NCBI GenBank assembly: GCA_001557035.1
Contig: LSKJ01000014.1
Location: forward strand, 1 to 10,335
Origin: Rhodospirillaceae bacterium CCH5-H10
GTDB lineage: Bacteria > Pseudomonadota > Alphaproteobacteria > Reyranellales > Reyranellaceae
DNA: 10,335 nt
Direction: 5' to 3'
Positions 4,896-7,178 of the stretch are shown here, in pieces; the first letter of the stretch is position 1, and each line of letters starts with the position of its first letter. The notes beneath the pieces were generated by a model, which saw only the letters and a list, made by a program, of their open reading frames with translations, ran no database searches and was not told the DNA's origin. The translations under genes and the position numbers were made by a program.

Positions 4896-7178
4896 ATGAA
4901 AAAAGACAGCAGCACCTTCTGGAAGAAGTCGCGTGTGGAACTCCGGGCGGCCGGCTTCGAACCCGACAAGACCGCGCAGACCAGCGCCGTCGTCACCATC
5001 GCCAGCGCCTACACCAACGCCCATCGCTGCAACAACCGGGTGCGCACCATCGGCGACCTGCTGGTCGAGCTGCTGGCCGAGCGCGGCGGAAACGGGCTGA
5101 TCGTCGGGGCGCCGGCCGTGTCCGACGCACTGACGCAGGGCACGCCGACCGCGGGCTACAGCCTGGTGTCCCGCGACGTCGTGGCCGACTGTTTCGAGAT
5201 CGGCCACTACGCCCATCACGGCGATGCGATGATCGTGATCTCCGGCTGCGACAAGACCGGCGCCGCCGCGCTGATGCCCCTCGCCCGCACCAACGCCTTC
5301 GGACTCGTCCTCTATCCCGGCACCAGCTCGCCGGGCCGCGTCTCCTTCGGCGCTTGGGCGGCCAAGGGCAACAACCTCACCATCATGGATTACGTCGAGG
5401 GCCGCGCCGCCAACGAGGCCGGCCGCATCTCGGGCGAGGAGCTGGTCGAGCTCGAAAGCAACGTCATGCCGGGCAGCGGCACCTGCGGCGCCATGTTCAC
5501 CGCCAACACGATGAGCACCATCGCCGAGGCGATGGGCATGATGCTGCCGCGCGGCGCCTCCCATCCGGCTGACTACAAGGCCGGCAGCGACATCCACGCC
5601 GACGTGCGGGCGCAGGCGAAGGCATCCGTCGATGCGCTCTATGCCCTGATGGCGGCGGGCATCCGCCCGCGCGACATCATGACGGAGAAGGCCTTCGAGA
5701 ACGCCATCGCGACGGTCTATGCGATGGGCGGATCGACCAACATGTATCTTCACCTGCTGGCCATCGCGCGCGAGGCGCAGGTGCCGATCACCATCGAGCG
5801 TATCCAGCAGGTCGGCGAGAGGATGCCGCTGATCTGCAATCTGCAGCCGCACGGCCCCTACGCGATGGTCAGCCTGCACGAGATCGGCGGCGTCCCGATC
5901 GTGATGAAGGAGCTGCTGCGCCACGGCTTCCTGCATGGCGATGTCATGACCGTGACCGGCAAGACGCTGGCGGAGAACCTCGCCTCGGTCCCGACGCTCG
6001 AAGAGCTGGGAAAGCAGGACATCGTCCTGCCCATCTCGAATCCTGCGGCGCCCGCGAACAACCATATCAGCGTGCTGAAGGGTAACCTCGCGCCGGAGAG
6101 CTGCCTGCTGAAGCTCAGCGGCAAGACGCTGGAGAAGGGCGAATTCCGCGGCACCGCGCGCGTGTTCGAGTCGGAGGCCGACACGATGAAGGCCATTCGC
6201 GCCGGCGAGATCGTTCCCGGCAACGTCGTCGTGGTGCGCAATGTCGGCCCCGTGGGCGGCCCCGGCATGCCCGAGATGGTGATGCTCACCATCCAGCTCC
6301 AGGGACGTGGGCTCGGCGAGGACGTGGCGCTGATCACCGACGGCCGCTTCTCCGGCGTCAGCCACGGCATCCTGATCGGCCACATCTCGCCGGAAGCCGC
6401 GCGCGGCGGCCCGATCGCCGCGGTGCGCGACGGCGACACCTACAAGATCAACGGCAACAAGACCTGGATCACCCATGCCGCGCGCGCCGACATCATGACC
6501 CTGCTGGCGCGCAGCGATGCGTCGAAGCCCGGCTATCAGGGCCTGTCGATGTTCCTGGCCGAGAAGCCGCGCGGCACCGACGCCGATCCGTTCCCCGCCA
6601 AGGGCATGAGCGGCGGCGAGATCAAGGTGCTGGGCTATCGCGGCATGAAGGAATACGAGATCGGCTTCGACGGGTTCGAGGTGCCGGCGGCCAACCTGCT
6701 GGGCGAGAAGGAAGGGCAGGGCTTCAAGCAGCTCATGGCGACCTTCGAGAGTGCGCGCATCCAGACGGCGGCACGCGCCGTCGGTGTGGCGCAAAACGCC
6801 CTCGAACTCGGCCTGCGCTATGCGAAGGAGCGCATCCAGTTCGCCAAGCCGCTCTACGCCTTCCCGCGCGTCGCCGGAAAGATCGCGTGGATGGCGGTCG
6901 AGACCATGATCGCGCGCCAGCTCACCTACTTCGCAGCGCGCGAGAAGGATTCCGATCGGCGCTGCGACATCGAAGCGGGCATGGCCAAGCTGCTGGCGGC
7001 GCGCGTCGCCTGGAGCAATGCCGACAACGCGCTGCAGATCCACGGCGGCAACGGCTATGCGATGGAGTATCCCGTCAGCCGCGTTCTATGCGATGCGCGC
7101 ATCCTCAACATCTTCGAGGGCGCAGCCGAGATCCAGGCGCAGGTCGTCTGTCGCGGCCTGATCGAAGGACGCAACTAG
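4896..7178 (+). CDS. In-frame fusion: IlvD/Edd-family dehydratase joined to C-terminal half of an acyl-CoA dehydrogenase (methylsuccinyl-CoA dehydrogenase-like)
   Basis: One uninterrupted 760-codon frame holds parts of two unrelated enzymes. Residues 1 to ~515 are an IlvD/Edd dehydratase, which removes water from dihydroxy- or sugar acids with an Fe-S cluster and Mg2+. The three expected cluster cysteines are present: Cys45 (NAHRCNN), Cys118 (SGCDKT) and Cys197 (GSGTCGAMFTANTM). Also present are MGGSTN (277-282), GGPGMPE (454-460) and TDGRFSG with the likely catalytic Ser486. From ~515 the sequence becomes acyl-CoA dehydrogenase: INGNKTWITHAA (518-529), GYRGMKEYEIGFDGFEVP, RIQF (646-649), QIHGGNG (714-720) and FEGAAEIQ with presumed catalytic Glu741. 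Wording of this half most recalls (2S)-methylsuccinyl-CoA dehydrogenase of the ethylmalonyl-CoA pathway (moderate certainty). The dehydratase lacks its last ~60-75 residues; the dehydrogenase lacks its N-terminal helical domain and the TEP-GSD part of the FAD site. The dehydrogenase half is unlikely to work; the dehydratase half might. The dehydratase substrate is unknown. MKKDSSTFWK matches family N-termini, which supports the start. Confidence 0.88.
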   Translation: MKKDSSTFWKKSRVELRAAGFEPDKTAQTSAVVTIASAYTNAHRCNNRVRTIGDLLVELLAERGGNGLIVGAPAVSDALTQGTPTAGYSLVSRDVVADCFEIGHYAHHGDAMIVISGCDKTGAAALMPLARTNAFGLVLYPGTSSPGRVSFGAWAAKGNNLTIMDYVEGRAANEAGRISGEELVELESNVMPGSGTCGAMFTANTMSTIAEAMGMMLPRGASHPADYKAGSDIHADVRAQAKASVDALYALMAAGIRPRDIMTEKAFENAIATVYAMGGSTNMYLHLLAIAREAQVPITIERIQQVGERMPLICNLQPHGPYAMVSLHEIGGVPIVMKELLRHGFLHGDVMTVTGKTLAENLASVPTLEELGKQDIVLPISNPAAPANNHISVLKGNLAPESCLLKLSGKTLEKGEFRGTARVFESEADTMKAIRAGEIVPGNVVVVRNVGPVGGPGMPEMVMLTIQLQGRGLGEDVALITDGRFSGVSHGILIGHISPEAARGGPIAAVRDGDTYKINGNKTWITHAARADIMTLLARSDASKPGYQGLSMFLAEKPRGTDADPFPAKGMSGGEIKVLGYRGMKEYEIGFDGFEVPAANLLGEKEGQGFKQLMATFESARIQTAARAVGVAQNALELGLRYAKERIQFAKPLYAFPRVAGKIAWMAVETMIARQLTYFAAREKDSDRRCDIEAGMAKLLAARVAWSNADNALQIHGGNGYAMEYPVSRVLCDARILNIFEGAAEIQAQVVCRGLIEGRN
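6426..6440 (+). other. Fusion junction between dehydratase and acyl-CoA dehydrogenase parts
   Basis: Codons 511-515 read Arg-Asp-Gly-Asp-Thr. Before them GGPIAAVRDGD is a standard IlvD-family ending of the DGRFSG/GHxxPEA block. After them YKINGNKTWIT is a standard acyl-CoA dehydrogenase beta-domain entry, itself normally preceded by a similar R-D/E-G-D-T/K stretch. The swap therefore lies within about 15 bases where both parent genes would plausibly have been nearly identical, as expected for recombination or deletion at short homology. The reading frame is kept exactly. The parent sequences are not in this window, so the length of shared identity is inferred. Confidence 0.75.

Follow-up and report, generated by a model that had tools for sequence, protein, structure and literature searches.

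A single open reading frame on the plus strand of the window (the entire 10,335-bp stretch of DNA analyzed here) begins with an ATG at position 4896, ends with a stop codon at 7176 to 7178, and encodes 760 amino acids in which the 5' part of an ilvD-like dihydroxy-acid dehydratase gene (ilvD) continues into the 3' part of a (2S)-methylsuccinyl-CoA dehydrogenase-like gene (mcd). Comparison with related genomes leads us to the view that this frame is probably a mis-join of two ordinary genes, produced as an assembly or library chimera, and not a new enzyme. The features of the region are given in Table 1.

Table 1. Features of the window around the ilvD-mcd join
Feature	Positions	Strand	Extent or content, and basis
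ilvD-like dihydroxy-acid dehydratase gene, 5' part	4896..6428	+	residues 1-511 of intact 572; Pfam/NCBIfam
Crossover interval	6419..6439	+	at most 21 bp, one frame common to both genes; registered locus comparison
(2S)-methylsuccinyl-CoA dehydrogenase-like gene, 3' part	6440..7178	+	last ~247 of ~545 residues; Pfam
Left neighbor, GlgE-like maltosyltransferase with long N-terminal extension	1601..4708	-	Pfam
Right flank of mcd	7193..10335		small hypothetical (+), GNAT-like (+), SDR (+), sulfatase (-)

Pfam profiles place ILVD_EDD_N at residues 32 to 361 of the product, ILV_EDD_C at 375 to 531, Acyl-CoA_dh_M at 508 to 592 (entering only at profile position 20), and Acyl-CoA_dh_1 at 607 to 755; PF02771 (Acyl-CoA_dh_N) is absent from the frame. 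The ILV_EDD_C match covers 156 of the 191 profile positions and ends past the junction. With best E values of 8e-160 on the dehydratase side and 5e-56 and 1.3e-38 on the dehydrogenase side, the similarity of both sides to their families is not a matter of chance. The frame and its domains thus agree with an earlier note on this DNA, which had described a dehydratase running unbroken into the C-terminal half of an acyl-CoA dehydrogenase.

On the dehydratase side, the nearest complete relative is P0001, an IlvD protein (PF00920 plus PF24877; nearest solved sequence, 6NTE). Residues 1 to 511 of the chimera align with IlvD from its first residue, and the ilvD part is identical to P0001 at 504 of 515 residues (11 differences). 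IlvD has complete N- and C-terminal dehydratase domains, and P0001 carries the whole of ILV_EDD_C, whereas in the chimera that domain is incomplete: about 58 C-terminal residues of the dehydratase (of 572) are missing, with foreign sequence in their place. The chimera scores 466.1 against the TIGR00110 cutoff of 618.15, and complete P0001 likewise falls below it (519.5). At the DNA level, the ilvD part is 94% identical to genome G049 up to position 6439 and about 91 to 92% identical to the next closest relatives over the same range. Of the eight ilvD loci at 94 to 98% protein identity, four are annotated as Reyranella, three as Rhodospirillaceae or Rhodospirillales, and one as uncultured Alphaproteobacteria, which points to a Reyranella or a near relative as the organism.

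The mcd part is identical to the complete protein P0068 at 246 of 247 residues and shares 92 to 95% DNA identity with the mcd genes of the closest relatives. Several of the homologues of the dehydrogenase part bear the name (2S)-methylsuccinyl-CoA dehydrogenase, and all of the best 120 contain PF02771, which is found nowhere in the window. P0068 has this N-terminal domain together with the middle and C-terminal domains, and 6ES9, its nearest solved sequence, matches it over nearly its full length. Compared with the Mcd enzyme of PDB entry 6ES9 (PMC5798300), the chimera shares only the last 247 residues; it lacks the N-terminal extension, all of the N-terminal domain, and the beginning of the middle domain, and the dehydrogenase part begins at about residue 306 of 6ES9 in the alignment. 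P0068, the Mcd nearest the window, is itself without about 13 residues that are present in P0097 before the dehydrogenase core.

We mapped the junction by a registered comparison of 79 ilvD loci (40 of them listed) and 12 mcd loci. For most of the 40 listed ilvD loci, identity to the window ends at 6439/6440, with a few single differences just 5' of that position, and some of the 40 diverge a few bases before 6439. Ten of the 12 mcd loci reach the interval and agree with the window from about 6428 onward, with scattered differences, and blastn carries the mcd match back to 6419. Because bases 6417 and 6418 fit ilvD and not mcd, the crossover lies within 6419 to 6439, in agreement with the junction given in the earlier note (6426 to 6440). 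In five genomes with both genes read, the ilvD side codes for A-V-R-D-G-D-T-I at the site and the mcd side for A-V-[L/R]-[D/E/K]-G-D-T-Y. The two genes share a reading frame over 6419 to 6439, and for that reason the frame stays open across the join; an open frame arising at such a crossover is no evidence of selection.

We postulate that ilvD and mcd, whether from a single Reyranella or from two closely related ones, were joined where they resemble each other over a short distance, in a stretch that would code for A-V-R-D-G-D-T or something similar. The join most likely arose in the assembler or in library preparation, and we infer an origin in silico or in vitro as opposed to one in the cell. 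Within single genomes, ilvD and mcd are exactly identical at the site over 11 bp in G006, 8 bp in G063, G019, and G065, and 5 bp in G049; across genomes the identical run reaches at most 13 bp, and all of these lengths are below usual assembler k-mers. We conjecture that the strain's own mcd may carry the codons GCG GTG CGC GAC GGC GAC ACC, each of which is found at its position in some relative, never all together; the shared stretch would then be 21 bp, equal to a small assembly k-mer. In all four genomes compared, the junction stretch was not the longest string common to ilvD and mcd, which is mildly against a homology-driven join. Chimeric contigs from metagenomes likewise combine pieces of two different origins, and PMC3901335 ascribes them to conserved functions or sequences of related organisms; that study concerns simulated viral and viral-bacterial communities. 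A point against the mis-join is that an in-cell join via microhomology would look alike.

The parents of a chimera should be found intact, apart, and with the same flanks in relatives, and this is the arrangement that we observed. The earlier note had named intact parents with the same flanks elsewhere in the genome as a sign of an assembly artifact, and sister genomes contain such parents: G049 has glgE beside an intact ilvD, and several relatives have mcd with parts of the right flank. G049 is the closest of the genomes compared on the ilvD side. Its contig C279 (6,255 bp) matches window positions 420 to 6439 unbroken at 90.9%, with glgE and ilvD divergent as in the window, and then continues through the intact 3' end of ilvD; its mcd lies on another contig, C245. 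The adjacency in G049 indicates that the glgE-ilvD arrangement is natural, so that the sole break found is at 6419 to 6439. We also considered a second break near 4780 to 4812, which would make the window a mosaic of three pieces. The idea came from early relatives in which the glgE block stopped at about 4778 while the ilvD block did not start until about 4813; it is ruled out by glgE lying beside ilvD in G049. The glgE-treS block (window positions 1 to 4778) was matched in 6 of the first 15 relatives, where it is located apart from ilvD, and neighbors upstream of glgE differed among these first relatives. The GlgE-like reading frame itself (1035 amino acids) has its GlgE N/S domain from residue 399, preceded by an N-terminal extension without a Pfam match.

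Parts of the right flank of the window lie 3' of mcd in G004, G006, G019, G049, G063, and G065. In G004 and G063, the mcd flank matches the window to 7628 and then the sulfatase from 9005; in G006, G019, and G065, the right-flank match starts at about 7900 to 7940. In G049, about 180 bp separates mcd from the sulfatase, versus about 1.8 kb in the window (7179 to 9004), and the genes between the two are thus variable. Where the short-chain dehydrogenase reading frame begins, at 8220 to 8250, a 12-bp unit is tandemly repeated (MNSHMNSDMNSD). Judged by these matches, both flanks of the window are faithful pieces of Reyranella genomes.

An alternative hypothesis is that the join is a real, very recent rearrangement, in which an inversion or a tandem duplication through the short similar stretch placed the 3' end of mcd behind the 5' part of ilvD. 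We consider this unlikely, although the in-frame microhomology at the join and the faithful Reyranella sequence on both flanks are consistent with it. So is the similar distance of the two halves from G049 (87 of 513 codons changed in ilvD and 41 of 245 in mcd), since both could then come from one genome. The geometry of the two genes limits what such an event could have been. In all four relatives where the distance can be judged, ilvD and mcd are at least 180 kb apart: in G013 they lie 181 kb apart on opposite strands (ilvD at 3.284 Mb, plus; mcd at 3.102 Mb, minus), in G051 they lie 260 kb apart, both on the plus strand with mcd upstream (ilvD at 1.929 Mb; mcd at 1.668 Mb), and in G006 and G019 they are on separate contigs, where the distances to the contig ends put them no less than about 320 and 860 kb from each other, respectively. 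Given the gene order in G013 and G051, a deletion cannot create a join of the ilvD 5' part to the mcd 3' part. From the G013 geometry an inversion could make it, and from the G051 geometry a tandem duplication could; the inversion would leave both genes broken, and the duplication would leave intact copies elsewhere. A real join would have to be a large event, too young for visible decay.

Several observations weigh against such a rearrangement. The gene mcd is single copy in 10 of 11 relatives, with the next match at about 45% identity or less, and 8 of the 11 have nothing above the TIGR00110 cutoff, with the ilvD matching the window as the best scorer and thus the best biosynthetic candidate there. 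Because of these counts, losing both genes should be costly. As a point against the mis-join, the ilvD of the window need not be essential, since the other three relatives (G013, G051, and G063) each carry one or more additional ilvD genes that pass the cutoff. Neither half shows sequence decay. Relative to G049, the changed codons are 81 synonymous and 6 nonsynonymous in the ilvD half and 38 synonymous and 3 nonsynonymous in the mcd half; this purifying pattern in both halves leaves no trace of a life as a fusion.

Against other relatives, the distances of the two halves are uneven, with 125 of 513 ilvD codons and 36 of 245 mcd codons changed for G063, 108 and 40 for G019, and 123 and 49 for G006. 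For the mcd half, G049 is no nearer a relative than G063 or G019, and this half may therefore derive from another, closely related strain or species, or mcd may simply be more conserved than ilvD.

In two close relatives, mcd contigs end near the site of the join. Contig C245 of G049 (L138, 6723 to 6760) ends within mcd, 37 bp before the junction site, and contig C178 of G065 (L154, 2587 to 2785) ends about 12 bp past the shared stretch. We take these ends as a hint of difficult assembly, which may also reflect chance or strain variation. In G065, mcd is present as two pieces with a 199-bp overlap at contig ends. The possibility that G065 holds the reciprocal chimera was ruled out, as C178 simply ends and its last 199 bases are 96% identical to the other mcd contig; the second mcd piece looks like a strain variant, as would be seen with two strains in one bin.

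The join was not found elsewhere in the genomes and proteins searched, which argues against both the rearrangement and a functional fusion. Among 65 genomes of the genus, with four candidates scored per genome, no place crosses the junction; at an E value of ≤1e-60, 61 have a match, and the halves are distributed as both but apart in 33 genomes, one in 28, and neither in 4. A 137-residue junction peptide had a full-length match in none of 76 genomes of the order (the 65 genus genomes included), while one or both of its sides were matched in 70 of the 76 at an E value of ≤1e-25. A protein search with residues 400 to 620 returned no junction-spanning sequence in the best 120 of 7,999 matches, for which query cover was ≤68%; these 120 did not include the protein of the window itself. 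The search for junction-spanning homologues that the earlier note had called for therefore came back empty within that set, and its impression that no established family has this architecture holds for the best 120 of 7,999 proteins and the 76 genomes. An independent homologue spanning the junction, by which an established family of fusion enzymes would be recognized, was thus absent from the proteins and genomes searched. Viral contigs gave no exact matches to the back-translated junction pattern. A plasmid origin was rejected: 94 plasmid records match the window, none over >80% of its length, and the best 20 of the 94 are confined to the treS/glgE part. In the literature, no description of a dehydratase/dehydrogenase fusion appeared in the titles and abstract beginnings of the matches listed.

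The remaining hypothesis, that the frame encodes a functional fusion enzyme in which a dehydratase has exchanged its lost C-terminal end for a dehydrogenase-derived cap, we regard as highly improbable. The frame is open, and the product keeps the motif DGRFSG at residues 482 to 487, which we take to hold the catalytic serine of the dehydratase. The dehydratase profiles also fit for 10 to 20 residues beyond the junction. According to PMC11316719, a C-terminal histidine of the sugar-acid subfamily reaches the neighboring subunit's active site, whereas branched-chain dihydroxy-acid dehydratases have a shorter C terminus that is not aimed at the active site; for an enzyme of the latter kind, loss of the tail need not cost a catalytic residue. 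The loss of the terminal dehydratase residues nevertheless counts against such an enzyme, as do the losses on the dehydrogenase side. Of the seven contact residues of PdMCD, the chimera is missing the first three: Arg-252, Ala-285, and Phe-287, which PMC5798300 describes as substrate and flavin contacts, precede the join in the 6ES9 alignment and are thus absent, and Trp-318, Thr-320, Phe-515, and Phe-534 are retained. A working dehydrogenase from the chimera is very unlikely, judging by these residues. An AlphaFold model of the chimera, built from a mixed alignment, was too poor for use (mean pLDDT, 38.4; pTM, 0.30).

The earlier note had left a choice among a gene fusion, a disabled pair of genes, and a mis-join. 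Our analysis favors the mis-join; the open frame is the sole support for a fusion enzyme. The case serves mainly as a caution. Where two unrelated genes code for almost identical residues over a short distance, they can be joined with no stop codon in between, and two strong domain matches in one open frame should therefore not be taken as evidence of a fusion enzyme. We think it quite unlikely that the frame is a young in-frame fusion, formed by inversion or large duplication at the stretch of at most 21 bp, whose product might fold as a tailed dehydratase. Were the join real, it would show a fusion gene just as it came into being, which is seldom observed.
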